A DNA stretch of 44,406 bases from positions 1 to 44,406 of the forward strand of contig JAUZRG010000079.1 in assembly GCA_030950585.1 (NCBI GenBank), read 5' to 3'. Position 1 is the stretch's first letter; each line of letters opens with the position of its first letter. The position numbers were made by a program, and so were the translations under genes. This DNA comes from Mariprofundaceae bacterium. Lineage in GTDB: Bacteria; Pseudomonadota; Zetaproteobacteria; Mariprofundales; Mariprofundaceae. Of this stretch, positions 266-44,247 are shown one piece after another. Below the pieces are notes generated by a model. The model worked only from the letters and a program-made list of their open reading frames with translations, was not told the DNA's origin and searched no databases.

Positions 266-283
266 TGAAAGTGAACACTTTCA
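266..283. promoter_or_regulatory. Perfect 18-bp palindrome, probable TetR-type operator
   Basis: TGAAAGTGAACACTTTCA is an 8-bp perfect inverted repeat around a 2-bp centre. It lies 15 bp before the ATG of the TetR/PqqD-like gene, between the IS end and the operon. Size, symmetry and position are typical of a TetR-family autoregulatory operator. I saw no convincing -35/-10 pair around it, so the promoter itself is not called. That the neighbouring protein binds it is inference. Confidence 0.65.
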
Positions 284-298
284 TTTTTGATACGGCTT

Positions 299-1075
299 AT
301 GCGGGGAATCACACACACAACACAACAACGGATCGATCATGTGATGCATGCATTGGATCAACTGGCTCAGCTGGATTTATTATCACAGTTAACGAGTCGG
401 CTTGTGGTGCAGTATTCGGGTGTGAGTGAAGGGGTGATGTTTCGTCACTTTAAAAATATGGATGATGTCTTGTATCGGTGGATTCATTGGCGCGGTGAAC
501 AGCTATTGCATGCTGTGCGTGATGTGCCAATGGGTCGCAATGGCTTATTGTATATGGTGCGTGAATTGATTGGCAACAATGCTTTGTTGAGCTTTTTATG
601 TTGTCATCCAATGGGTAATCCTGATCTGCGTGAGCAGTTATTGATTTACCGTTATAAGGTTAGAGCATCCATACAACAACACATTACACCGATGTCGATG
701 CGTCCTCAGCATATCCCTGTTGAAATGTTAAGCGATCACTTATGGATTTCTCTTTGTGATGTTTGGCGTGGTGAAACTAGCATGAAGGAGAAGTTAATGA
801 GTCAATTACCGTGGGAATCTAAAGAAACGTCGATGCCTGATCCAGCTGTGATTCAGCGTTTGGCATTAAACCAAAGCGGGTTTGTCTTTGATCCTGTCAG
901 CGGTTGTAGCTTTACCGCCAATGAATCAGGTTTGAAGATTTTGCAGTGTTTGCAGCAACAGCAAGATATGGAAAGTTTGGTGTTATCTTTGGCCACTGAG
1001 TTTGATGCCAGCAGCAAAGAAGTTGAACGTGATGTGATGGAATTTGTGGCGCAGTTGCGTCGGTTGATCAAGTGA
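299..1075 (+). CDS. TetR-like DNA-binding / PqqD-like fusion protein
   Basis: Residues about 10-60 look like a TetR-family N-terminal helix-turn-helix; the GVSEGVMFRHFKNMDDVL stretch matches the usual GVSxGxxYxHFxxKxxLL pattern. The last ~75 residues match the PqqD/RiPP-recognition-element pattern: an ALNQSGFVFDP strand, SFTANESG, then helices ending in EVERDVMEFVAQLRRL. PqqD-like domains bind leader peptides or partner enzymes in peptide-modifying pathways, and here the domain sits next to an ATP-grasp ligase. An in-frame TTG at 287 is an alternative start; neither start has a strong ribosome site. The stop overlaps the next gene's GTG (GTGA). Likely role (inferred): operon regulator that senses or docks a pathway component through the PqqD-like part. 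Confidence 0.7.
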   Translation: MRGITHTTQQRIDHVMHALDQLAQLDLLSQLTSRLVVQYSGVSEGVMFRHFKNMDDVLYRWIHWRGEQLLHAVRDVPMGRNGLLYMVRELIGNNALLSFLCCHPMGNPDLREQLLIYRYKVRASIQQHITPMSMRPQHIPVEMLSDHLWISLCDVWRGETSMKEKLMSQLPWESKETSMPDPAVIQRLALNQSGFVFDPVSGCSFTANESGLKILQCLQQQQDMESLVLSLATEFDASSKEVERDVMEFVAQLRRLIK

Positions 1076-2139
1076 AGTCGCTGACGGTTGCCATTACTGG
1101 CATGAATGCGCGTGCCGATAATCCAGGCCCTGGTTTGGCTGTGGCGCGTTGTTTGCGCGAAGAAGAACGCTTTCAAGGTAATATCATTGGTTTGAGCTAC
1201 GATGCCCTTGATCCCGGTTTGTATTTGGAAGAAATGTGCGAGGCCTCTTTTTTATTGCCTTATCCTTCAGCGGGCGAAACTGCGTTGCTTCAGCGGATGC
1301 AAGAGATTCATGCCGATACTCCTTTTGATGTGTTGATTCCTTGCCTTGATGCTGAATTGCTCAGCATGGTGCATTTAAAGGATGCGTTTGCGGCAATGGG
1401 TATCAAGATGTTATTGCCTGATAGCGAGCAGTTGGAATATCGCAATAAAGATAAGCTGCCGCAATTAGGCCAAGATATTGATATTAAGATTCCTGAATTA
1501 AAAAACATCACACATGCTGGATTTTTCTATCAATGCACCCAAGAGGGTTGGCACTACCCACTTGTGGTGAAAGGTTTGTTTTATGATGCCGCTGTGGTTC
1601 ACAGTGCCGATGAGGCTGCCGCAGCTTTTCATAAGATTGCAGCGAGCTGGGGTTTACCTGTGTTGGTACAACGCTTTATCGAAGGTGAAGAAGTTAATCT
1701 TTCCACGGTGGGCGATGGCCAAGGTAATATGTTGGCACCTGTGAGTATGCGCAAGCGTGCATTGACAGATAAAAACAAAGCATGGGCAGGCATGACCGTG
1801 GATGATCCCAAGGTGGTCGAAGCTGCTGAAAAGATTATTCGCCATATCAAGTGGCCCGGTCCGCTTGAAGTTGAAATGATGATTGGGCGTGATGGTCATT
1901 ATTATTTGATTGAAATTAACCCACGTTTTCCTGCGTGGATTTACCTGAGCAAAGCTGTTGGCTGTAACTTACCTTATATCTTACTTGAGTTGATTACAGG
2001 CAATACGCCAGAAGCCACCCAGACTCCGAAAGCAGGCTCGATGTTTATTCGTTATGCCCAAGAAGTGGTGATTTCACTATCAGACTTTGAACAAATGACC
2101 ATGTATGGCCATTATAAAGGAGAGAAAGACCATGACTAA
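1072..2139 (+). CDS. ATP-grasp ligase, PylC/carbamoyl-phosphate-synthetase-like
   Basis: A 355-residue cytosolic protein with GTG start overlapping the upstream stop. It has an N-terminal nucleotide-fold domain (LTVAITGMNARADNPG), a central ATP-binding region with probable phosphate-contacting lysines K128 and K167, the VQRFIEGEEVNL strand, and the metal-binding LEVEMMIG...EINPRFP block (E268, E281, N283). ATP-grasp enzymes join a carboxylate to an amine or thiol through an acyl-phosphate. The closest known architectures by eye are PylC-like and carB-like ligases, but the substrate cannot be predicted. Its coupling to a PqqD-like protein upstream and a PLP decarboxylase downstream suggests that it makes an amide later or earlier processed by decarboxylation (inference). 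Confidence 0.8.
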   Translation: MKSLTVAITGMNARADNPGPGLAVARCLREEERFQGNIIGLSYDALDPGLYLEEMCEASFLLPYPSAGETALLQRMQEIHADTPFDVLIPCLDAELLSMVHLKDAFAAMGIKMLLPDSEQLEYRNKDKLPQLGQDIDIKIPELKNITHAGFFYQCTQEGWHYPLVVKGLFYDAAVVHSADEAAAAFHKIAASWGLPVLVQRFIEGEEVNLSTVGDGQGNMLAPVSMRKRALTDKNKAWAGMTVDDPKVVEAAEKIIRHIKWPGPLEVEMMIGRDGHYYLIEINPRFPAWIYLSKAVGCNLPYILLELITGNTPEATQTPKAGSMFIRYAQEVVISLSDFEQMTMYGHYKGEKDHD

Positions 2140-3502
2140 TCAAACAAAAACATGGCAAAAACCAAGCCTATTAGCCCATAAAACAGGGCTGATGAACAAA
2201 GTGGGTGCGGTTGCTCAGCATCATTTTATCTCTGAAGTTGATGGTCATCCTGTTGAAGATCTCATGAAAGCCTATGGTTCACCTCTCTTTGTGCTTTCAG
2301 AGCAAGGCATCCGTGACAATGTGCGTCAGTTGCGGCGTGCCTTTGAAACCCGTTTTCCGCGTGTGATTTATGCATGGTCGTATAAAACCAATTATTTGAA
2401 TGCGGTATGTAGCACCATGCATCAAGAAGGTGCATGGGCAGAAGTGGTGTCAGCTTTTGAATATGAAAAAGCGCGCGCCTTGGGTGTGCCAGCAGATCGT
2501 ATTTTATTCAATGGGCCGCACAAGAAGCGTTCTATTTTAGAACGGGTGGTTGAAGAGGGTGGACGCATCCATATTGATCATTTGGATGAGTTGTACTTGC
2601 TTGAAGATGTGGCTGCCAAAGCTGAGAAAAAAATATCGGTGACCATTCGCATCAATTTTGACACAGGCTATACCCAAGCATGGAGCCGTTTTGGTTTTAA
2701 CCTTGAATCGGGTCAGGCGATGGATGCGGCAAGACGCATTGGTCAAAGTGCGTTTTTAGAATTGAGAGGCATCCATAGTCATATTGGCACCTTCATTCTT
2801 GATCCGCGTGCGTATGCGGCGCAAGCACGCATCATGTGTGGCTTCATGGAAGCGGTGGAAGAACAAACAGGTTGTAAGATTGAAAGTGTTGATTTGGGCG
2901 GCGGTTTTGCCTCTAAGAACACCTTGCACGGTACGTATTTACCCCCAGAACAAGTGGTTCCAAGCATTGATCAATATGCTGAAGCCATTTGTGATGTGAT
3001 GATGGAATGTAAAAACAACCGTGAAGCGCGTGGTCTGCCATTTCCAACGCTTATTTTAGAAAGTGGTCGTGCGATGGTGGATGATGCAGGTACGCTTTTA
3101 AGCTCAGTGGTCGGAACCAAACGTTTACCTGATGGTAAACGATCCATTGTGATTGATGCGGGGGTTAATATTCTGTTTACAGCTTTTTGGTATAACCATG
3201 CTGTACATCTAACGTCAGCGGTGGAAGGCATTCCTGAAGAGACGGTGGTTTATGGGCCTTTGTGCATGAATATTGATGTGGTGCGTGCCAGCATGATGTT
3301 GCCGCCGATGAGTGTGGGAGATGTATTGCATATTTCTCCTGTGGGCGCGTACAACAATACGCAATGGATGCAGTTTATTGAATACCGTCCTGCTGTGGTC
3401 ATGACCCATCCTGATGGCAGTGTCTCTGTGATTCGAGAGGCCGAGGACTTGGCTTGTGTGGTCGCTCAAGAAAAACTCCCAGCACATCTAGCGGAATTTT
3501 AA
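2132..3502 (+). CDS. Fold-III PLP-dependent decarboxylase (DapDC/ODC-like)
   Basis: The ATG at 2132 is chosen because AAAGGAGAG precedes it with good spacing; it overlaps the ATP-grasp stop by 8 nt. The 456-residue product shows the alanine-racemase-like barrel plus C-terminal domain of diaminopimelate/ornithine/arginine decarboxylases: PLP lysine K85 in AWSYKTN, HSHIGT, DLGGGF for phosphate binding, LILESGR, the active-site GPLC motif (GPLCMNID rather than the DapDC form GPLCESGD) and a late VGAYN. The change next to the active-site cysteine suggests a substrate other than diaminopimelate. Similar enzymes act in siderophore and polyamine routes (PvsE, SbnH), but no NIS synthetase is present here. 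Confidence 0.82.
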   Translation: MTNQTKTWQKPSLLAHKTGLMNKVGAVAQHHFISEVDGHPVEDLMKAYGSPLFVLSEQGIRDNVRQLRRAFETRFPRVIYAWSYKTNYLNAVCSTMHQEGAWAEVVSAFEYEKARALGVPADRILFNGPHKKRSILERVVEEGGRIHIDHLDELYLLEDVAAKAEKKISVTIRINFDTGYTQAWSRFGFNLESGQAMDAARRIGQSAFLELRGIHSHIGTFILDPRAYAAQARIMCGFMEAVEEQTGCKIESVDLGGGFASKNTLHGTYLPPEQVVPSIDQYAEAICDVMMECKNNREARGLPFPTLILESGRAMVDDAGTLLSSVVGTKRLPDGKRSIVIDAGVNILFTAFWYNHAVHLTSAVEGIPEETVVYGPLCMNIDVVRASMMLPPMSVGDVLHISPVGAYNNTQWMQFIEYRPAVVMTHPDGSVSVIREAEDLACVVAQEKLPAHLAEF

Positions 3503-3503
3503 G

Positions 3504-5693
3504 GTGTTTCTCAGTTCCATATGGCGTGTGTATCTACAAGAGGCGGTAAAAGGGTTGCTGCATGCTTATGCATCTATTCTTTTTTCACAGCATGCGCATG
3601 TGGGACTGTTGTTTTTGTTGGCGACATTTTGGTTTCCCAATACGGGTGTGTCAGGTTTATTGGCAGCCCTGACGGGTATTTTAACCGCTAATATGATGCG
3701 TTTTTCCAATATTGGTAGTGGCTTGCATATTTATAATAGTTTATTGGTTGGTTTGTCGTTGGGGGCTGTGTATCAGCTTGATATTTATTTGGCCATTCTG
3801 ATCATCATGGGCGCGGTGATGGCCGTTTTTATGAGCGTGGCTCTGGCTGATTGGTTGTGGCGCATTGATCGTTTGCCTGCTTTAAGTTTGCCTTTTGTGG
3901 TGGTGGCATTAACCACGGCCTTTGCAGCTCAAGGTTATGGTACTTTAAGTCATTATTTATTGCCGATGGCACCACACGCCATTTATTTTACTGAAGCTTT
4001 CGATCACTTCTTTACTGCAATGGGTTCTGCCTTTTTTATGCCAAATCCTGTGGCGGGTGCTTTGTTCTTTTTGGGTATTTTGATCACATCACGTTATTTG
4101 GCCTTATTGGCTTTGGGTGGTTTTATTGCGGGTTATGGGGTGTTTGCTTTTTTGTCAGGCAGTCAACACCCTGATTTAGTGGCATGGACAGGTTTTAATT
4201 TTGTCCTGACAGCTATGGTGATTGGCGGTATTTTTAGCGTTCCCAGTTGGCAAAGTTTTGTGTTAGCGATGGTTGGGTCAATGATGGCTGCTCTTCTCAC
4301 CACGGCTGCACAAAGTTTTATGCTGGTTTATGGTTTACCCGTGATGGCCTTACCCTTTTTGATTACTTCTTTATGCATGTTGATTGCCTTGCAAAAAAGG
4401 GTGTCACTGAGTCCGCCACATATGCTGATGAATTGCCCAAATTTACCAGAAAAATCTTATGAAGATGCGCGCTTGGCACGGGTACGGCATGGCGATGTAC
4501 ATAGTGTGCCTCTGCATGCGCCGCATATGGGTTTGTGGTCGATCTATCAAGGTTTTGATGGGCAGCACACGCATTGCCCGCCATGGCAACATGCCTTGGA
4601 TTTTTATATCGTGGAAAACGCTAAAAGTTATGCCAATGAAGGTTATTATTTAACGGATTATTTTTGTTTTTCTTTGCCTGTGGTGGCACCTGCATATGGG
4701 CATGTGGTGGCTTGTGTGGCGCATTTACCCGATAACCATCCCGGTGAGGTGGATACCCAAGCGAATTGGGGTAATCATATTTTGATTCAACTGCAAAATG
4801 GTTTGTATGTGTTGTTGGCACATTTACAACAGCATAGTTTATTGGTGCATCAAGGGGATATGGTGAATGCAGGTATGCCCGTGGCACGTTGTGGAAACTC
4901 TGGGCGTTCACCCCAGCCCCATATTCATTTACATGTGCAGCGTGATTTAGCGTTAGGAAGCCCCACCATTCCGTTTCACCTCAGTGCAAGCATGTTGCGT
5001 GCCGAGAATGGTCAGATGCAGTTTAAATTATTTGCTCGGCCTAAGCTTGGTGATGTGGTGGCTGCGATGGATGCCGTGGGAACATTAGCCCATGCCTTAC
5101 ATCTTCCTGTGGGGCGGTCGTTGCAGTATCAAGTGATGATTGATGGACAAACATTGCTGAGAAGCCTGACTGTGAAGTTAACTTTGACAGGTGAGTTTCG
5201 CTTGCATAGCGATCAAGGGGCTTCGGCAGCCTTTTGTGAAGACTCTGGTATTTTAGCTTTTTATGATCGTCAGGGAAGCCCTGATTTCTTTTTTGATGTC
5301 TGGGTCTTATCTGTGGGTCTAACACCTTTATCTGAGGGGCAAGGCATGCATCTCTTATCTTGGCGAGACGCACCTGCGATGGCATGGATGCCTGTGACTC
5401 TCTGGCAAAAAATCCTTTTGTTAATACGCTATCCTTTGGGTGGTGGGCTTAAAAGCACTTATCAACGTCGGCAGGGTGCTTTGGGTCAATGGTTGCAAAG
5501 TGGTGAGCACCAGCTCATTTTGCCTCTACTAAAACCATTGGTTTTACATACAAATGTGATGATGTCGGATGTGAATGGTATTGCAGAAGTTTCTGCTGTC
5601 TATGGTCAAAAACAGGTGCGTGCTGTGTTGGAATTAAGTGGTTTTATTGCTGATGAAGGTGTGCCTGCATCGTATCATTCAAGCACATTATAA
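3504..5693 (+). CDS. Urea transporter-like membrane domain fused to an M23 metallopeptidase domain
   Basis: GTG start one base after the previous stop; 729 residues. Residues 30-300 form many hydrophobic segments with two UT signatures, LPALSLPF (124-131) and LPVMALPF (278-285), one per half of the pseudo-symmetric urea channel. Residues about 330-480 are M23-like: HALDF (H363, D366; H355 and H357 nearby), LLAHLQ (H440) and HIHLH (473-477). The first metal motif is H-x2-D rather than the usual H-x3-D, so metal binding needs checking. Residues 490-729 match nothing I know. UT proteins normally have both ends in the cytoplasm, which would make the M23 domain cytosolic, an odd place for a peptidoglycan hydrolase. 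Substrate unknown. Confidence 0.85.
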   Translation: MFLSSIWRVYLQEAVKGLLHAYASILFSQHAHVGLLFLLATFWFPNTGVSGLLAALTGILTANMMRFSNIGSGLHIYNSLLVGLSLGAVYQLDIYLAILIIMGAVMAVFMSVALADWLWRIDRLPALSLPFVVVALTTAFAAQGYGTLSHYLLPMAPHAIYFTEAFDHFFTAMGSAFFMPNPVAGALFFLGILITSRYLALLALGGFIAGYGVFAFLSGSQHPDLVAWTGFNFVLTAMVIGGIFSVPSWQSFVLAMVGSMMAALLTTAAQSFMLVYGLPVMALPFLITSLCMLIALQKRVSLSPPHMLMNCPNLPEKSYEDARLARVRHGDVHSVPLHAPHMGLWSIYQGFDGQHTHCPPWQHALDFYIVENAKSYANEGYYLTDYFCFSLPVVAPAYGHVVACVAHLPDNHPGEVDTQANWGNHILIQLQNGLYVLLAHLQQHSLLVHQGDMVNAGMPVARCGNSGRSPQPHIHLHVQRDLALGSPTIPFHLSASMLRAENGQMQFKLFARPKLGDVVAAMDAVGTLAHALHLPVGRSLQYQVMIDGQTLLRSLTVKLTLTGEFRLHSDQGASAAFCEDSGILAFYDRQGSPDFFFDVWVLSVGLTPLSEGQGMHLLSWRDAPAMAWMPVTLWQKILLLIRYPLGGGLKSTYQRRQGALGQWLQSGEHQLILPLLKPLVLHTNVMMSDVNGIAEVSAVYGQKQVRAVLELSGFIADEGVPASYHSSTL

Positions 5694-5703
5694 GGAGAGG
5701 TAT

Positions 5704-6585
5704 ATGCGTAAAATAGTATGGTTATTTAGTGTTTTCTGGTTGTTTCAAGGAACAGCCTATGCTCAAAATTGGTATGTAAAAACCGATGCTCAAACGATCT
5801 ATGGAAAATATAGTAAGTCTGCTCAACGTAATGATATGGTGGGAGCGGGTTTGTTTGTGAGTGCAGATTACCTTGATCATGGTGGATTTACCTTGGGCTA
5901 TAACTATACCCAAGTGAACTTAAAAGCCCCTTTGCAAAGTATCACGCAAAACGATTTCACAGGCAATATACGGCTTAATTTTCATCCTGATGCCTTGCCG
6001 GGTGTGTTAACGATGCGTTTAGATTTGCATACTATCAACAATGATGATGCGAGTGGTTTGACGGATGCTGTGAAAGCGTATGGCTCACAAGTTTCTTTTT
6101 TGAATTATGCCAAAAGCCTGTATGTCGATGTGGGTTATAATTATTCTAAATATCAGTTTAATTTTAATGTAAATCAAATCACCCCGACATTGGGTATGGG
6201 TTTTAATGATGCCTCAGAATGGGTGCAACTGCGTGCTTATATCATTAAGTTATCTGATAAAAAACGCGCTCAAGGTAAAAGCAGTACCAATGCCCTAGAA
6301 GTCAAATGGACACATTGGTTTGCAGTGGATAATTTTTTAGCAGCCGATAACTTGCGTGCAAGTGCCATGCTGGGTGAACGCATATATGCCGTTGATAGTG
6401 ATTCGGCATCGGTTTACAACCTGACTGATTTGCAAACGGGCGCTTATTCTTTGGGCTTGGAATGGAAGCTGGGCGATCATACCACCTTTATGATGATGGG
6501 TGGTCTTGAAAAATATGAAAATAAAACCATTCAAGATAAATACGAAAGTCGATTTGCGTATATGAATCTTGGTTATCAGTGGTAA
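5704..6585 (+). CDS. Outer-membrane beta-barrel protein
   Basis: The start at 5704 is set by TAAGGAGAGG just upstream and by the signal peptide it gives (hydrophobic core then GTAYAQN, cleavage after about residue 20). The 293-residue product is rich in alternating aromatic/polar strands (GFTLGYNYTQVNL, LYVDVGYNYSKYQF) and ends in a YMNLGYQW strand with a C-terminal aromatic residue, the BAM recognition pattern. This is a small porin-like barrel without an obvious named family. It lies 10 bp after the urea-transporter fusion and just before a TPR protein, suggesting an outer-membrane counterpart to that transporter (inference). Confidence 0.75.
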   Translation: MRKIVWLFSVFWLFQGTAYAQNWYVKTDAQTIYGKYSKSAQRNDMVGAGLFVSADYLDHGGFTLGYNYTQVNLKAPLQSITQNDFTGNIRLNFHPDALPGVLTMRLDLHTINNDDASGLTDAVKAYGSQVSFLNYAKSLYVDVGYNYSKYQFNFNVNQITPTLGMGFNDASEWVQLRAYIIKLSDKKRAQGKSSTNALEVKWTHWFAVDNFLAADNLRASAMLGERIYAVDSDSASVYNLTDLQTGAYSLGLEWKLGDHTTFMMMGGLEKYENKTIQDKYESRFAYMNLGYQW

Positions 6586-6619
6586 GTAATTCGATGTATG
6601 AAAAAAGAGAGGTGAAGTT

Positions 6620-7240
6620 TTGTCTATTTTATTAAAATCATGTGCTGTGCTTGCTTTGTGTTTGCTCGGTATGAGTTTGGCACAGGCCAAAGAAAGTAGC
6701 ACGCCGTGGCAAACGTCTTATGCTTTGGAAGCATCGGGTCAATATGAACAAGCTGCCGCCGTGCTAGTCCCCTTATTGGGGTATGGTGGATCTAGTGAGT
6801 TTGCTTTACTCCGTTACGGTTGGTTGAATTACCTACAAGGGAATTATAACGATTCTATTCGTGCTTATACGCGCTCATTAACACGCAATACGCGCTCTAT
6901 TGATGCGCGTTTGGGTATCGCGCTTCCTTTGTTGGTACAGCAGCGTTGGCGTGAAGCTGCGAAGTATGCTCAACAAGTGATAGCCGTTTCGCCTTGGAAT
7001 TATTCAGCTCATGAAAGCTTGATGCGTTGTGAAGAAGGTTTGAAGCAATGGGAAACATTGGCCAAGCATGCCCGTGATGTGTCGAGTTATTACCCTTCTG
7101 TGGTTGCACCTTATGTATATTTGGCACGCGCTGACCTATGGTTGGGTCAAACAGACAAAGCATATGCTGCCTATCAACAAGTGCTGGAACGTCAACCCAA
7201 TCATTTGGAAGCATTGCGCTATTTGAAGATTGGTAAGTAA
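6620..7240 (+). CDS. Exported tetratricopeptide-repeat protein
   Basis: TTG start preceded by GAGAGGTGAAG; 206 residues with a signal peptide (LLKSCAVLALCLLGMSLAQA). The mature part holds about four TPR units, for example ALEASGQYEQAAAVLVPLL, YLQGNYNDSIRAYTRSL and the last ADLWLGQTDKAYAAYQQVL, giving a small periplasmic scaffold. TPR proteins next to beta-barrels often serve in assembly or export of surface molecules, as in YaiO or PgaA-like pairs, but here the two domains are separate genes. It is the last gene in this direction; the next gene converges on it after 13 bp. Confidence 0.75.
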   Translation: MSILLKSCAVLALCLLGMSLAQAKESSTPWQTSYALEASGQYEQAAAVLVPLLGYGGSSEFALLRYGWLNYLQGNYNDSIRAYTRSLTRNTRSIDARLGIALPLLVQQRWREAAKYAQQVIAVSPWNYSAHESLMRCEEGLKQWETLAKHARDVSSYYPSVVAPYVYLARADLWLGQTDKAYAAYQQVLERQPNHLEALRYLKIGK

Positions 7241-7253
7241 TTGATTTAACTAT

Positions 7254-7613
7254 TTAATCCCCATCACATTGTAGATAACCCTTGATTTGCATCGCTTGCT
7301 CAGCAGCGGTGTGCAGGTGCAATAGACTTTCGATAATGTCTTTGCTCTCCAGTGTGATGAGGCCTTGGCTGATGCTATCGTATTGAATTTGTGTTTTTTG
7401 ATCAAAATACTTGGAGCCTAAGAGATACGTGATGTTGTGCTTTAGACGACGACAATCTTCTTTTTGAAATAAAGTAGTGTTGTTTTCATCAATGTAGTCG
7501 TGACCGACATTGATGAAGGGTAGGAGGTATTCTTGTATGCTCAAGTTGGGAAAAAACCAACCTTTCTGTGTGTGCTTTTGACCTTCTTGATCGACAACTT
7601 TCCAATCCATCAT
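7254..7613 (-). CDS. Hypothetical protein, 119 residues
   Basis: The reading frame on the minus strand begins with two ATGs, preceded by AAGGAG seven bases before the first. The product starts MMDWKVVDQEGQK, has no signal peptide or membrane segment, is mixed helical and acidic near the C-terminus, and carries two cysteines. I do not recognise the family. It converges with the TPR gene and diverges from the M23 gene, with a 104-bp shared upstream region. Confidence 0.6.
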   Translation of the reverse strand: MMDWKVVDQEGQKHTQKGWFFPNLSIQEYLLPFINVGHDYIDENNTTLFQKEDCRRLKHNITYLLGSKYFDQKTQIQYDSISQGLITLESKDIIESLLHLHTAAEQAMQIKGYLQCDGD

Positions 7614-7717: not shown

Positions 7718-8548
7718 ATGACCATGCTCAAACTTTTCTTTGTTTTATGGTGTCTGATCGGCATTGTGCCAATGACGCATGCCCAAGATTGGCAAGCTGC
7801 CCAAGGGGATATTGTACGCCTTGAGACAGATGCTCCCCAAGGTGTGGTCAATATCAGGGCTTTTGATATTGATTGGCCTGTGAAGCGCTTGAGTGACTCA
7901 CGCATTGTCGCATGGGTGGGGGTTGGTATTAAAACCAAGCCTGCAACATATCCCATTGTGATGAGCTTAGACTTGGCCGATGGCCGCCATTTTTTGCGCA
8001 CTGATCAACTAGTGGTGGCAAAAGGGAATTTTCGCATTTCACGCATCACCGTGAAAAAGAAACATGCGAATTTTAACCCTAAATCGTTGGCACGCATTCG
8101 CAGTGATCAACGTGCTTTGGGTCGTACTTATAATATGCCTGTGGATGCCAATCCTGATGTCCAAATTGATTTTATGCCTGTGGAAGGGCCAATTACTACA
8201 CCCTTGGGTGCACAACGTTATATTAACGGGCAACCGCGTTCACCGCATACAGGTGTGGATATTGCTGCACCAGAAGGTACGCCAGCTAAAACCCCCCTTG
8301 CAGGTAAAGTCTTGTTGACAGAATCTATGTTTTTGACAGGTAATTCGGTGGTCATTGGGCATGGTAATGGTCTATATTCTGTCTTTGTCCACCTCAGTGA
8401 GATTTTAGTGAAAGAAGGGCAATGGCTTGCTACTGGAGAGGTCTTTGCTAAGGTTGGCCAGACGGGACGAGCAACGGGGCCTCATTTACATTGGAGCTTG
8501 CGTTTTCATAAAAAAAGGGTTGATCCTTTAAGCCTGTTGCGAAAATGA
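7718..8548 (+). CDS. Exported M23 metallopeptidase
   Basis: ATG with GAGGAG upstream; 276 residues. A signal peptide (cleavage near VPMTHA/QD) precedes an N-terminal beta-rich domain (24-120) typical of LasA-type M23 proteins, then the catalytic domain: PHTGVDIAAPEGTPA gives zinc ligands H177 and D181, VHLS gives H225, and GPHLHWS gives H256 and H258. All expected catalytic residues are present, unlike in the urea-transporter fusion upstream. Likely role: periplasmic cleavage of peptidoglycan cross-links during growth or division. A receiver-domain gene follows immediately and may be cotranscribed. Confidence 0.88.
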   Translation: MTMLKLFFVLWCLIGIVPMTHAQDWQAAQGDIVRLETDAPQGVVNIRAFDIDWPVKRLSDSRIVAWVGVGIKTKPATYPIVMSLDLADGRHFLRTDQLVVAKGNFRISRITVKKKHANFNPKSLARIRSDQRALGRTYNMPVDANPDVQIDFMPVEGPITTPLGAQRYINGQPRSPHTGVDIAAPEGTPAKTPLAGKVLLTESMFLTGNSVVIGHGNGLYSVFVHLSEILVKEGQWLATGEVFAKVGQTGRATGPHLHWSLRFHKKRVDPLSLLRK

Positions 8549-37829: not shown

Positions 37830-38780
37830 ATGGATGATTTTTCGTCTAAAGATTTGAAGTCAATTCTTCATTCTAAGCGTGCCAATATTTATTACCTTGA
37901 GATGTGCCGCGTGATGCAAAAAGATGGCCGGGTGCTTTATTTAACCGAAGGCAAAAAGGAAAGGGTGTATTGGAATATCCCGATTGCCAACACCACCGTT
38001 ATTTTACTAGGGACAGGTACATCTATCACCCAAGCAGCCATGCGAATGCTGGTTTCAGCGGGTGTCTTAGTGGGCTTTTCTGGTGGCGGTGGTACGCCAT
38101 TGTTGGCTGGTTGCGATGTGGCTTGGTTATCCCCGCAAAGTGAATATCGCCCCACTGAATACGTGCAAGGCTGGATGTCTTTCTGGTTTGATAAACGCAA
38201 ACGACTGCAAGTTGCCAAACTATTTCAACAAAAGCGCATTGCCTATATGCAGCGTGTTTGGTTAAAAGATCGAGATTTAAAGTCAGAAGGTTTTTCTATG
38301 GATGATGCAGACATCCAAAAGGCTCTATTAAAATTCTCTGAAAAAATTGATTTATGTGCTGATGTTACAAAATTGTTGTTGCTTGAAGCACAGATGACCA
38401 AAAGTTTTTATAAAATTGCTGCCAATCGCACCAAGGCGGATGGCTTTGTGCGTGATCATGCGCAGAATGATGATGCCAATGCTTTTTTAAATCACGGTAA
38501 TTATCTCGCTTATGGTTTGGCTGCAAGCACATTATGGGTCTTGGGCATTCCGCATGGTTTTGCGGTCATGCATGGCAAGACGCGACGCGGAGCCTTGGTT
38601 TTTGATGTGGCTGATTTGATTAAAGATACGCTTATTTTGCCGTGGGCTTTTATTTGCGCCAAAGAACGGGCAACAGAACAAGAGTTTCGCCAACAATGCC
38701 TACAAAACTTCAGCAAACACAAAGCCCTCGATTTTATGTTTGATACCGTGAAAGAAATTAGCTTAAGCGGGGATCAATGA
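37830..38780 (+). CDS. cas1: Type I-F CRISPR-associated endonuclease Cas1
   Basis: Integrase for new spacers. 316 residues with a GAGAGGG ribosome site. The N-terminal beta domain (RANIYYLEMCRVMQKDGRVLYL) is followed by the alpha domain with metal ligands E186 (LLLLEAQMTK), H248 (AVMHGKTRRG) and D259 or D262 (VFDVADLIKD). The sequence is of the Cas1f type. First gene of the operon; its stop overlaps the Cas2-3 start (ATGA), implying coupled translation of the adaptation partners. Confidence 0.95.
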   Translation: MDDFSSKDLKSILHSKRANIYYLEMCRVMQKDGRVLYLTEGKKERVYWNIPIANTTVILLGTGTSITQAAMRMLVSAGVLVGFSGGGGTPLLAGCDVAWLSPQSEYRPTEYVQGWMSFWFDKRKRLQVAKLFQQKRIAYMQRVWLKDRDLKSEGFSMDDADIQKALLKFSEKIDLCADVTKLLLLEAQMTKSFYKIAANRTKADGFVRDHAQNDDANAFLNHGNYLAYGLAASTLWVLGIPHGFAVMHGKTRRGALVFDVADLIKDTLILPWAFICAKERATEQEFRQQCLQNFSKHKALDFMFDTVKEISLSGDQ

Positions 38781-41701
38781 TGATGGTCACCTTTGTTTCA
38801 GAGTGTGAGAAAAAAGCTTTAAACAGAACAAGACGTGTGCTGGATGCCTTTGCGAATCGAATCGGTAGAAATACGTGGCAAACGGTGATTAGCAAAGAGG
38901 GGCTAGATGCTGTCAGGCATGCTTTAAAACAAAGTGCCTCACGGAATACAGCTGTGTCTTGTCACTGGATAAGAAGTCGTAGCCGTAGCGATCTTAAGTG
39001 GGTTGTTGGTAACAAAGATAAATTTAATTCACAAGGGATTGTCGCAGTAAATTATACCAATCAGGAGAATATATTGAAAATTGATGACATTGAAATTGAT
39101 ATAAATAGTTATGTTGCGAATACCAAAAAGCAATCACTCGTGAATCATTTGTTTGCTGTGGGTTATGTGTCTTATTTGCTGTGCAAACAACTCACCGACA
39201 ATGAGAAGCTAGCGAAGGCAGTCTTTATAGCTGGGTGTTGGCATGATATGGGGAAGATTGACTCAGGCTTTCAGCAGTGGGTCATGGATAAAACCAAAAA
39301 GAAGCTGATTGATGATATTCCCGAAGATGGGCAACATATTGATAAAGCAGGAAAGTTTTCTTTTGAAAAACACCCCAGGCATAATGAAATATCCTTGTTA
39401 CTTTTTTCTTTATTGGATGATGAGCGTGATAAGTGTGTAAATGTTAAAAGTCGGGATTTAATCAAGCATAGTATTTATTGGCATCATGCTAAGCCCAATC
39501 GAAAAGAAGAAATCAAAAAACTTGATGGCGTATATAATAAATTAACAGCAAAGCAAGTTGAAAAAATGATACCTGTGACACTTGGTATGTTGGCTAAAGT
39601 CATAAACTTAACAGCTAATTACGGTGTTGATTTGAAATTAACAGATTTTTTTAAATCATTAGATGATGACAGGGTTTATGATGTAAAGAAGACATTTTTA
39701 GCTGAATATAAAAACTATGGTGCAAGTCTGGAATTGAAGCAATTTCAGGGTGATGTGAAAATTAATGCTAGAAATAACATTGCGCGAACCGTTCTTGTCT
39801 CCGCTGATCGGTTGGTTTCATCTTTAAGTGCCGAGGCATTAAATGCTTATATTGAAGAAGGTTCACTGCACACCCTTTTGGATGAAGCTTTATTGCAAGA
39901 GCGTGGGTTAACCGCCGCGATTAACGTCTGCTTGCAAGGTTTTGAAGAACAGTATCCCGCTAGCGATAGAAATAAAAAGCAAAGCCAAGCTGTGCAAGAC
40001 CTAAACGATGGCGAAACAAGTGTCATGGTGCTTCAAGGGCCAGCGGGCTGTGGTAAAACCAAAATTGCTTTGGAGTGGGCTGCGAGTAACTATGCAAAGA
40101 AAATCATTTGGGTATGCCCAAGGGTGCAAGTTTGCCAAGGTTTGGTGAATGATCTTATCAGTAAAGAATACTTACCCCATACGAAAATTGAAATTTGCAC
40201 AGGTGAATTTAAAAGCATTTATCAGTCTGGAGAACCGCCTATAGACACACCAGAAGGGCAAGCGTTTTCTGGTGATATTGTACTGACAACCATTGATCAA
40301 GTGATTAATACCATCACCACGCACACTAAAATCACAGGTTTAATCCAATATATGAATGCTCATGTCGTTTTTGATGAGTACCATGAGTATATTCCGATGG
40401 CTGGGTTTAACTTGTTATTTGCAGAGTTGGTGGCTTGTAAGCAATTGCAAAGCAATACGAAGAATGCACTGCTGGTTTCTGCAACACCTAACTATTCGTT
40501 TGTTCAAGGTCTTCTGGACATTCATAAAGATGATATTATAAGTATCAAAAGTTTTAATCAGCGTAAGTATCATATTGAATTTCAAGCTTTTGATGAAAAA
40601 CAAGAAGATGAAAGCAACCCGCTATATCAACAGCAACTAGATAATACCTTTGTCATTAGCAATACGGCGATTACAGCGCAACGTAGTTTTATTCAAAATC
40701 AAGGTAAAGAACAGGCTATTTTGATTCACTCTAAGTTTAAGCCAAAAGATAGAAAAGAGTTGTTTAATAAGGTTTTTAAGACGTTTAAAGAAGATGGTGA
40801 TAAAGGCTTTGTTGTTTTGCGGGCGGGGCCGATTATTCAAGCTTCCTTAAATATTACGTGTAAAAAGATGGTTACTGAGATGACCAATGCGGAGAACTGG
40901 CTACAGCGCATGGGTCGGTTAGATCGTTTTGGTAAAAGTGATGTGTCTAGTCTCTATCTTTCAGCTGTTTCTCAACATGTGAGAGATGGAAAATGCTTGG
41001 GAAATGCAAAGTTTCTGAATGGCTTACATTGTTTGCAAAGTAGCAAGGCATGGTTGATATTTTTGGAAAAGAACCTTCCAGAAAACAAAACGCTAACCAT
41101 CGATGCGATCTATCAACTTTATCAAGATTTTTACAAGGATAAGCATTGTCTTGATGCGATTGAGCAAGATTTGTTGGCGGCATTAAAAGTTAGTGTTCAA
41201 TTGATTGGTGAAAAAATTATTGATCCTATTTCTTTTCCTAGTAAGAAAAAGCCAAAAAACACTAAGGTGAAAATCAAGAATAACTCCTTGCGTGGCAATA
41301 GCCGATTTGTACAAATGGCTGTGATGAATATTGGCAATGGTTTGGAGGTGTTTCCAAATGACTATGCTTGTGATAGAGAGAGTTTCACGCTGTCTGTAGA
41401 GTTGATTACAGGCTATGGCGAAAGTGAAAGAAACCTATTAGCTTTTATGGCGAAAAAACATCATAACATTAAAGAAGATTTGAGCTATGGAGTGAAGAAA
41501 ACTACAAAATACAAAGACAGTGTATATTTGAAAAAATCAAAAGAAGAAGAAACGCCCCTTTATTTGAGTTATACACGAGAAGATTTAAAGAAAGTGGAAG
41601 CAGAGCCTCACTTTTATGCTGTGTATTATGCAGTAGGAACAAACCAACCGATTGGGGCTATGTCAGCCCACCAAATAAACAATCAAGGAGAAGAAGGATG
41701 A
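38777..41701 (+). CDS. cas3: Cas2-Cas3 fusion nuclease-helicase (type I-F)
   Basis: 974 residues, a little shorter than many I-F Cas2-3 proteins. Residues 1-95 are the Cas2-like domain ([40 protein letters not shown]) that joins Cas1. An HD nuclease follows, with H124 and H156-D157 ([11 protein letters not shown]). The SF2 helicase has Walker A GPAGCGKT (421-428), DEYH (533-536), SAT (568-570) and a late [10 protein letters not shown]. It degrades the target strand after Cascade binding and takes part in spacer capture. Start may be any of three ATGs in a row (38777-38785). Confidence 0.95.
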
Positions 41702-42669
41702 GTACAGTAACAGGTGTTAAAAGTATTGACTTTAAAATCAAGGCATTAGGTCATGGTGTGGTGAATTGGAATGGGCCAACAAGTTTAAAAGGGGAACACC
41801 CACTTAAACCTTATGAAAATCACACAATGCCGAAATTAAGGGGGTATACAAATAGCACAGGTGAATTTGAAGAGGGGGTTACCAAAAAAGGCAATCCTTT
41901 TAAGGTAGATAAGTTAAAAGAAGCGACTGACATCAATTTCAAGAAAACTCCGTTATATATAAGCCAAAACTGTATCCGTCATCACCTCTTCAAAAACCAA
42001 GCTTTTGATATTCATTATGCAAAGAAGAACAACTTACAACAGGTATTAGCCTCAGTGACAGGCTTGATTCGTGGTTATGTTGTACCAGCAAGCCAAAATA
42101 AACGCACGAGTCCTTTGTTGATGGAAGACTTTGTGGATCAGTTGGGTAATGGGAACTTTGAACAGTTTGGGCAGGCTGGCGCACGAGATAGTTCTTCTTT
42201 TTTCTCCAAAACAACATTTGGCGATACTGAATATATTTCATACGGCTCTATCAGCATTGAGCAATTGCAATTTATTTCTTTGGATAAAAAGTTTGATCGT
42301 GAAGCGATGGAGCTGAAAGAAGGACAAGGGGAGAAGGTTGCACAAGGTGTGCAAGATTTTATTCAATCGTTAAATACAGACTTAAAACCTGTAGTAACTT
42401 TTCATGCAAACTATGTGCGCAGGGGTACTATTTTTGAAGAAGGTGAGCATGGCCTTTTATTGAATCATGATGCTATTAAAGCCTTGGTTGAGCATACCCT
42501 AGAAATGATTTCAGAACTTTCTATCCGTCAGGCAAAATCATATATGTATGTTGATGAAATAACGGTTGATTATAATGATAGCAACAAAATGATGCGTATC
42601 AAACGTGATGAAAGTGATATATCAGAGCAGCCTGAGTCAGATTATGCTTCTTATTTCTATGCGAAATAG
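41698..42669 (+). CDS. cas7fv: Type I-F2 (I-Fv) backbone protein Cas7fv
   Basis: 323 residues, ATG overlapping the Cas2-3 stop. Segments such as [19 protein letters not shown]-like ([19 protein letters not shown]), [50 protein letters not shown] and [19 protein letters not shown] match the S. putrefaciens CN-32 Cas7fv as I remember it, and not canonical Csy3. Cas7fv polymerises along the crRNA spacer and takes over roles of missing subunits. High apparent similarity to a Shewanella protein suggests transfer of the locus. Confidence 0.93.
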
Positions 42670-42677
42670 AGGTCGTT

Positions 42678-43682
42678 ATGAAAATCACAATTGAATATGA
42701 ATCCTCTTGGAGAAACTCATTTTTAGACGGTAATAATAATGAAGCACTGCCTAAAAATGGCCGTAAATTTATTGGCTCAATAACAAGCCTTAAGAAGGCT
42801 GAAAACTTTATTCAACGTCAGGTGACGCTGGATACCGTGATGGGGGTGATGAATAGACTGATTGGCGATCAGCGTAAATTATATCAAGCAAGAGATGATG
42901 CAAATTATTTTTTTAAAAGCATTGAAGCGCATGTGAAGCATGAAGATAAACCAAGTGCCATCAATAGAGAAATGACTTATATTCGTAATATTACGGGTAG
43001 CACAGATCAAAATTCATACACAGGCATGGTGAAAACCTTTGACCCCATGTTTTCATCTGATTATTCAGCGTCATTTTGGGGTGTTCTTGGTTTAGGTCTT
43101 GATGACCTATGTTTATTTATTATCAATAAAAACCAAATCACTACATCGATTGATGCTGACCCACTATCAATCATCACAAGACTTGAAGAGCTTAACAAAA
43201 TGAAAGCTATCTCCAATGAAGATGATGCTTGTAAAGCTGTGGAGGTATTACTGCAATCATTTCCTGATATTAGTTATGAAACGAAGAAAGGAGATCTGAT
43301 GCCTATTAGTCTTTATTGCTCAGCTTTATATTTACAGTTAGAGCGACTAGGGAAGCAGTTTGATATGTCTTCCGCAAAAACAAAGGCTGGTGGTCTTAGT
43401 GGTATTTCTAAACGGGGTTTTACCAAAAAAGATTTTATGAATCGTTTTACGACTGGTGATAAGAAGAAAATATGGGGAAACCCATATATTCATGAAGAGT
43501 TTGTGAAGGGTGTTGGTAAAATAAAGCACCTCATGACCAAAGCCAGTGGCACACTAGAAATCAATATTGATATAGAGAGAAGGAAGGCTAGAGAAATTAA
43601 AACGATGATTGATAATGCAGGTGTTTCCAGTTTTTACTTGGGTAAAAAAGGGTTGGCTTATGTTTCAAGAATACGTGTGTAA
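42678..43682 (+). CDS. cas5fv: Type I-F2 (I-Fv) crRNA 5'-handle/PAM protein Cas5fv
   Basis: 334 residues, 8 bp after cas7fv. The N-terminal strand [18 protein letters not shown], the [22 protein letters not shown] helix, the insert near 100-150, [22 protein letters not shown] and the C-terminal [21 protein letters not shown] ferredoxin-like strand match Cas5fv of S. putrefaciens. In that system it caps the crRNA 5' handle and replaces the Cas8f large subunit in PAM contact. A canonical Csy1 or Csy2 gene is absent from the locus. Confidence 0.92.
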
Positions 43683-43695
43683 TCGGGGGCTATAC

Positions 43696-44247
43696 ATGAA
43701 CTACTATTTTGATATTCAATTAAAGCCTGATGCAACAATGCGAGAAAATATCTTGTTAAATCAAGTTTATACAAAGTTGCACCAAGCTTTATCATCGATA
43801 CAGGCGACAGATATTGGCGTAAGTTTTCCTCATTATAAGCTGAAATTGGGCAATATTGTTCGCCTTCATAGCACTGAAACCCGTTTAATAGCACTACAAA
43901 CAATGAAATGGCTTGGTGATTTAGAAGTCGGTTGTGATGTCAGTGAGATCCAGCAGGTTCCAGACCAAGTGGCCTATCGGGTGGTGTCACGAAAGCAGAG
44001 CAATATGACAGAAGCAAAGTTGCGTCGATTAATCAAAAGAGGGTCAATTTCTCAAGGCGAAGTGCGGCAATATAAGTCGAAAATGTTTTCCCAAGGCCTT
44101 GATAATCCTTATTTAGAACTGGAAAGCAGTTCAAATGGGCATCATCACCGTCGATTTATTCAATTCAGTGCTATTTTAGATAAACAGAAAGATGGTTTGT
44201 TTGATCAATTTGGCTTAAGTAAAGAAGCAACAGTGCCTATATTTTAA
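43696..44247 (+). CDS. cas6f: crRNA endoribonuclease Cas6f (Csy4)
   Basis: The ATG at 43696 (CGGGGG upstream) gives 183 residues starting MNYYFDIQLKPDATMRENIL, aligned with P. aeruginosa Csy4; the longer frame from 43609 overlaps cas5fv. Catalytic H29 (KLHQAL) falls at the same position as in Csy4, GVSFP follows, the SSS at 144-146 supplies the serine, and the arginine-rich helix is LRRLIKR (109-115). It cuts the repeat hairpin after its 3' strand and stays bound. Last cas gene; an AT-rich leader follows. Confidence 0.95.
   Translation: MNYYFDIQLKPDATMRENILLNQVYTKLHQALSSIQATDIGVSFPHYKLKLGNIVRLHSTETRLIALQTMKWLGDLEVGCDVSEIQQVPDQVAYRVVSRKQSNMTEAKLRRLIKRGSISQGEVRQYKSKMFSQGLDNPYLELESSSNGHHHRRFIQFSAILDKQKDGLFDQFGLSKEATVPIF

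Follow-up and report, generated by a model that had tools for sequence, protein, structure and literature searches.

The 44,406-nucleotide stretch of DNA analysed here (the window, contig C190) belongs to a zetaproteobacterium-like marine bacterium with a genome of 2.5 Mb that is 99% complete, and it carries near its beginning an operon of six genes, A to F, that is conserved far beyond chance and well supported as a unit. The operon combines a TetR/PqqD protein, an ATP-grasp ligase, a decarboxylase, a fusion of a urea-transporter (UT) channel with an M23 metallopeptidase, an outer-membrane barrel and a tetratricopeptide-repeat (TPR) protein, and we give an even chance to the reading that it is a biosynthesis-and-transport unit for a small, amide-linked and decarboxylated amino-acid metabolite. 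The six open reading frames (ORFs), all on the plus strand, span 287-7240 with successive gaps of -4, -8, 1, 10 and 34 nt, gene B overlapping the end of gene A by GTGA. This bears out a sequence-only reading of the window, which had described six adjoining genes with overlaps or gaps of at most 35 bp, and the gene families it named were recovered by family and fold matches, that of gene A to TetR_N being weak and sub-threshold (0.0012; 19 bits against a cut-off of 24). Its starting point, 266, did not hold as the start of a gene, being the first base of an 18-bp palindrome; gene A begins at TTG 287 or, more likely, at ATG 299.

The UT-M23 fusion (gene D) was found in 24 of 398 Pseudomonadota genomes, a count that omits two M23-only matches, and gene B in 23, of which 22 also carry D (Fisher p = 8e-33). 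B and D occur together in 22 of the 25 genomes having either; one of the remaining genomes has B only, and the two that have D only carry an alternative enzyme pair. A scan of 84,980 species genomes with an alignment of D gave 148 relatives, 80 of which were kept, unlike a scan of genome contigs with the single D protein, which gave no match. C is present in 71 of these 80 loci, along with B wherever the contig extends far enough; seven loci have the alternative pair and two are truncated; loci with the PqqD protein, ATP-grasp ligase and fold-III decarboxylase are referred to here as type i, and those with the replaced enzyme pair as type ii. A, B and C are present in that order in 55 of the 56 type i loci with at least 3.4 kb of upstream sequence, which come from several phyla. 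Members of the pairs A-B, B-C and C-D always share a strand, with median gaps of -4, 3 and 4 nt, while E and F are each present in 35 of the 56 loci with enough downstream sequence. The protein distance matrices also correlate (B-C 0.92, C-D 0.89, B-D 0.89), with none of 500 permutations as high, kinship of the genomes contributing to these values.

The ordered set recurs in Zeta-, Gamma- and Alphaproteobacteria, Magnetococcales, Desulfobulbaceae, Geothrix, Anaeromyxobacter, one Nitrospirae metagenome-assembled genome (MAG) and Melainabacteria/Obscuribacterales, with Mariprofundus, Ghiorsea, Methylomonas, Thiothrix, Allochromatium and Reyranella among the carriers; many of the carrier genomes are MAGs, and taxon names are given as labelled. 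The distribution is patchy inside the window's own family, and no UT-M23 match spanning most of the protein was found on plasmids. The possibility, raised with the sequence-only reading, that the six families rarely co-occur elsewhere was checked and is answered by this recurrence in order across several phyla. The sequence-only interpretation is supported, with two corrections: the TetR part is not constant, PqqD mostly standing alone in distant loci, and the barrel and TPR proteins are common without being universal. No paper joining these families was found in the open-access literature, subscription literature lying outside the search, and a reading as anti-phage defence was rejected, there being no credible match to a PADLOC model.

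Table 1. Features of the operon in the window
Feature	Position	Strand	Description
Palindrome	266..283	.	TGAAAGTG-AA-CACTTTCA; likely operator for the TetR part of gene A
Gene A	287 (or 299)..1075	+	TetR-like helix-turn-helix region and C-terminal PqqD/RRE domain (~884-1063)
Gene B	1072..2139	+	ATP-grasp ligase, carbamoyl-phosphate-synthase-like
Gene C	2132..3502	+	Alanine-racemase-fold pyridoxal phosphate (PLP) decarboxylase, N-citrylornithine-decarboxylase-like
Gene D	3504..5693	+	UT channel (~3555-4388), M23 metallopeptidase domain (~4506-5003), C-terminal all-beta domain (~5016-5663)
Gene E	5704..6585	+	Signal peptide, 14-strand outer-membrane barrel, terminal Trp
Gene F	6620..7240	+	TPR protein, signal peptide

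The conserved linkage, the gene families, the active-site residues, the kept operator and the enzyme replacement are observed, whereas the chemistry of the operon is inferred at the level of families, as are, in the following scheme, its substrate and product, the sequence of steps, the transport direction and the membrane orientation. The ATP-grasp protein B would ligate an amino acid to an acyl group, the PqqD protein A serving as its docking or carrier partner. C would strip the alpha-carboxylate from this acylated amino acid, the reaction that FigC performs on N-citrylornithine. The product would then cross the inner membrane via the UT channel of D, the M23 domain, predicted to be cytoplasmic, trimming the product or gating its passage, and porin-like E with periplasmic F would take it across the outer membrane. 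In Zetaproteobacteria the TetR part of A would repress the operon from the palindrome. In type ii loci a fold-I decarboxylase and a PRK06524-like ATP-grasp replace A-B-C and would plausibly reach the same kind of product by decarboxylating first and ligating afterwards. Of the functions proposed from the window, the making or modifying of a small molecule derived from an amino acid best fits the family-level evidence, whereas uptake is less favoured.

C is a fold-III PLP decarboxylase (PF02784, 1.1e-33), with its start codon ATG 2132 preceded by AAAGGAGAG, and is nearest to the N-citrylornithine decarboxylase FigC (7kh2, 3e-55), while scoring 210.9 bits against the FslC/FigC model NF041039, under the curated cut-off of 500 bits. 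Residues that tell decarboxylases acting on acylated amino acids apart from those acting on free ones have been named for FigC (PMC7857480). In an alignment of the C family (91 rows, some sharing a genome), the equivalents of FigC T327, Y331 and M355 were present in all 91 rows, and all 91 lack the acidic residue beside the catalytic Cys as well as the Arg of diaminopimelate decarboxylase (DAPDC), Thr standing at the Arg position; the proposed citrate contacts of FigC, H357 and R387, are replaced by I/L and Q. Since the FigC-like Thr, Tyr and Cys-Met are kept, the readers of free amino acids are absent and the citrate contacts are replaced, the most likely substrate of C is an acylated amino acid whose acyl group is other than citrate. 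Its presumed partner B is an ATP-grasp protein (PF15632, 1e-13) related to carbamoyl-phosphate-synthase-like proteins (2pn1) and PylC, in which the catalytic residues E281, N283 and K167 are invariant.

A housekeeping LysA role for C was rejected on its score against the LysA model TIGR01048 (223.9 bits, under the cut-off of 297.9), on the Thr in place of the DAPDC Arg and on the availability of other decarboxylases. Distant carriers have a separate LysA over cut-off. Of the 15 genomes tested in the window's family, none gave a LysA above the curated cut-off; all of them, with or without the operon, have another fold-III enzyme. The C204 decarboxylase was at first thought to be LysA, a view given up as its best family match is TIGR03099, below cut-off; a gene similar to it, present in all 15 of these genomes, may do the DAPDC job. 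At L165:1498-2700 a LysA/TIGR03099-like decarboxylase adjoins an aminotransferase.

A close parallel to this order of reactions is the rhizoferrin pathway of Francisella, FigA/FigC (FslA/FslC), in which an alanine-racemase-fold PLP enzyme with T/Y/Cys-Met specificity residues decarboxylates an acylated amino acid (PMC7857480), as proposed for C. The pathway differs in that its ligase is a NIS synthetase (a siderophore synthetase), not an ATP-grasp enzyme, and in that it has no PqqD, UT-M23, porin or TPR partners, its citrate contacts not being conserved in C. In the butirosin pathway, BtrJ is an ATP-grasp ligase acting before BtrK. The latter is a fold-III decarboxylase on a carrier-bound amino acid (PMC7857480). 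BtrJ/BtrK/BtrI thus gives the sequence of ATP-grasp and then fold-III decarboxylase proposed here, BtrJ being likened to B at the level of class, but the route uses an acyl carrier protein and has none of the transport genes, and FigC is a nearer relative of C than BtrK is. Decarboxylase and/or ATP-grasp parts are also found together with Asn-synthase and GNAT parts in exosortase-A and N-acetylglutaminylglutamine amide (NAGGN) clusters (TIGR03099, TIGR03104). They differ from the operon in that C, and the Asn-synthase of some loci, fall far below the TIGR03099 and TIGR03104 cut-offs.

In seven loci (plus L057/L058) D stands with a fold-I decarboxylase of the Orn/Lys/Arg type, a PRK06524-like ATP-grasp unrelated to B, and F, often together with a C45 acyltransferase; no PqqD was detected in these type ii loci. 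Their D proteins form one fully supported clade nested inside the type i tree, for which the simplest reading is a single replacement of the enzyme module with the transport parts kept. A precedent exists in rhizoferrin, where one lineage ligates ornithine and then decarboxylates, and another (Ralstonia) ligates free putrescine, an alternative that parallels type i and type ii here (PMC7857480). On this analogy we hypothesise that the two modules reach a like product in different step order. A wider proposal, which we regard as possible though clearly tentative, is of a hitherto undescribed cross-phylum envelope system in which UT-M23, a channel-tethered metallo-hydrolase, would process or gate a decarboxylated amino-acid amide produced in the cytoplasm; since two unrelated ligase and decarboxylase pairs serve UT-M23, the small molecule would then probably be a conserved new metabolite or signal. 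The C45 acyltransferase, fold-I decarboxylase and PRK06524-like ATP-grasp are seen beside UT-M23 at L132:4776-12142 and L136:4857-12142, and PRK06524, named biotin carboxylase, seems to be an ATP-grasp family of its own. Asn-synthase-type and GNAT genes, again of amide and acyl chemistry, accompany some type i loci, and histidine kinases and response regulators are frequent neighbours.

The regulatory part of the scheme concerns gene A and the palindrome. The PqqD domain of A (8.6e-11) keeps in its relatives the core LAxNxxGFVFDPxSGxSFTxNxxG; it is stand-alone in most distant loci and TetR-fused in the window and several lineages. The 18-bp palindrome is perfect, with none expected in shuffles, and is the single full match in the window's genome. 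A 35-bp block with TGAAAGTR-NN-YACTYTCA lies directly 5' of A in 12 zetaproteobacterial loci, and the palindrome was found 5' of the operon in nine related genomes with TetR-fused A; it was absent from G005, which retains no more than a remnant of the TetR part, and from three genomes lacking the operon. This conservation is good evidence, not proof, for the likely autoregulation by A. A was also compared with the HPr-rel-A PqqD family (TIGR04353), against which it scores 35.3 with a cut-off of 35. That system was rejected: its partner kinase TIGR04352 gave no match in the window's genome (G000), no HprK-related kinase A is recurrent near D, and A is here linked to an ATP-grasp and a decarboxylase instead.

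On the transport side, D matches the UT family (PF03253, 1.2e-52; 179.3 bits against a curated 25) and Peptidase_M23 (2.3e-12), and its structure model (predicted local distance difference test, pLDDT, 86) gave Foldseek matches to dvUT/UT-A2 and to M23 peptidases. The M23 residues H357, D366, H440, H473 and H475 are invariant in 87 of 87 rows; the first His of the usual HALD motif is often Tyr in the D family, and H357 is a likely metal ligand in its place. The UT domain has clusters of basic residues at its two ends, the positive-inside signal being mild. The known UT topology and these flanking residues suggest that the M23 domain sits in the cytoplasm. E has no Pfam family match and is predicted to be a 14-strand barrel (pLDDT 89), most like CymA and OmpG, with a conserved motif GERIYAVDxDAAxVYNLADxQ and a start codon ATG 5704 preceded by AAGGAGAGG. 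E and F do not fit Slam/type 11 secretion: E gave no match to SlipAM (PF04575), and F scores 21.5 bits against 35.2 for the Slam TPR (PF24575). A FecR-domain protein and a TPR/SlipAM-like barrel adjoin the operon at L030:13912-17456, L059:14733-17176 and L140:7058-9557, and perhaps stand in for E and F there.

Several points weigh against the proposed biosynthesis-and-transport unit. M23 domains mostly work outside the cytoplasm. In G090, the B-only genome, A-B-C occur without D; at this locus (L173:553-9907) they are followed on the opposite strand by genes of the sulfatase-modifying-factor-like and RND efflux kinds. About a third of the complete-context loci lack E, and about a third lack F, so that the outer-membrane step is not obligatory. 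The comparison with FigC spans a handful of residues and leaves the acyl group unnamed, and the preference for export, which we consider likelier than import, is drawn solely from the biosynthetic genes.

The alternative that survives best, although we consider it unlikely, is modification of the envelope: the enzymes would make an amine or amide that is added to peptidoglycan or released from it, and in D the M23 domain would act as a periplasmic peptidoglycan hydrolase on a UT-derived anchor. In its favour are the invariant metal site, the fact that the closest solved M23 relatives are cell-wall hydrolases, and the envelope proteins E and F. However, canonical UT topology and the basic residues at the UT ends put M23 in the cytoplasm, and the UT fold is intact across phyla, with no decay to a plain anchor. 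Production of a siderophore or metallophore, by a FigC-like route without a NIS synthetase and yielding a product that chelates metal, would account for the siderophore decarboxylase FigC being nearest to C; we hold it to be quite unlikely, given the lost citrate contacts, the lack of either a NIS synthetase or a TonB-dependent receptor among recurrent neighbours, and the porin-like nature of E, which is not a TonB receptor.

In a pathway for a ribosomally synthesised and post-translationally modified peptide (RiPP), the PqqD domain would be a RiPP recognition element (RRE) presenting a ribosomal peptide to the ATP-grasp, with M23 as maturation protease. Of 56 type i loci, 55 have a PqqD/RRE domain, in keeping with such a pathway, and homologous decarboxylases can act on modified peptides, e.g. 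microcin C MccE (PMC7857480). Across loci, however, no short ORF recurs near the operon, the clustering of 2,459 short ORFs near operons having turned up nothing beyond ORFs that overlap real genes and, as the single recurrence in Zetaproteobacteria, the operator translated as if it were coding. This extends to the surroundings of operons in general the earlier statement that no RiPP precursor lies nearby; a precursor gene far from the operon is conceivable. Together with the type ii loci, in which PqqD was not detected, this makes a RiPP decidedly improbable.

Least probable of all, to a very small chance, is that E, F and D import urea or another small nitrogen compound, an amide or amine, for use by B and C: the UT domain is closest to urea transporters, but the urea-site positions are mostly changed, the window's genome has no urease, and a decarboxylase and a ligase are biosynthetic types. 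D shares the UT fold and LPxxxxPF repeats with dvUT and UT-A/UT-B, and differs from them in most urea-site residues, in its fusion to M23 and a beta domain, and in having no urease link. The site in dvUT, which we take to be Q24, T130, E187 and T294 in a numbering consistent with the F80A entry, aligns in D with mostly A/S, S, S/A and A/S, respectively. The predominance of Ala and Ser at these positions makes it unlikely that D carries urea. A urease-linked reading was rejected after a search of the window's genome and 17 operon-bearing genomes; no urease over cut-off was found in the former or in 13 of the latter.

Just 3' of the operon the window encodes a separate secreted M23 protein (7718-8548), which is not a member of the conserved set, and, between the two and convergent with the operon, a 119-aa ORF on the minus strand (7254-7613) with no Pfam or NCBIfam match. 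Further on, 37830-44247 holds Type I-Fv CRISPR-Cas genes (Cas1f, Cas2-3-like, Cas7fv and Cas6f/Csy4) and an unassigned gene at the Cas5fv position; no direct repeat was found in the last 407 bases of the contig, and so no CRISPR array is seen at that end.

The operon is built from members of known families, and its enzymes follow a logic akin to that of known ligate-and-decarboxylate pathways, while no known counterpart of the UT-M23 device was found. What the analysis defines is a co-inherited set with testable chemistry, present in about 6% of the sampled Pseudomonadota genomes and in several other phyla. The operon would give a new use of the urea-channel fold, an M23 hydrolase that may be intracellular, and acyl-amino-acid decarboxylases of a new family. 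That the enzyme pair was swapped while UT-M23 was kept points to selection on the product, and hence makes the operon a good target for metabolite discovery.

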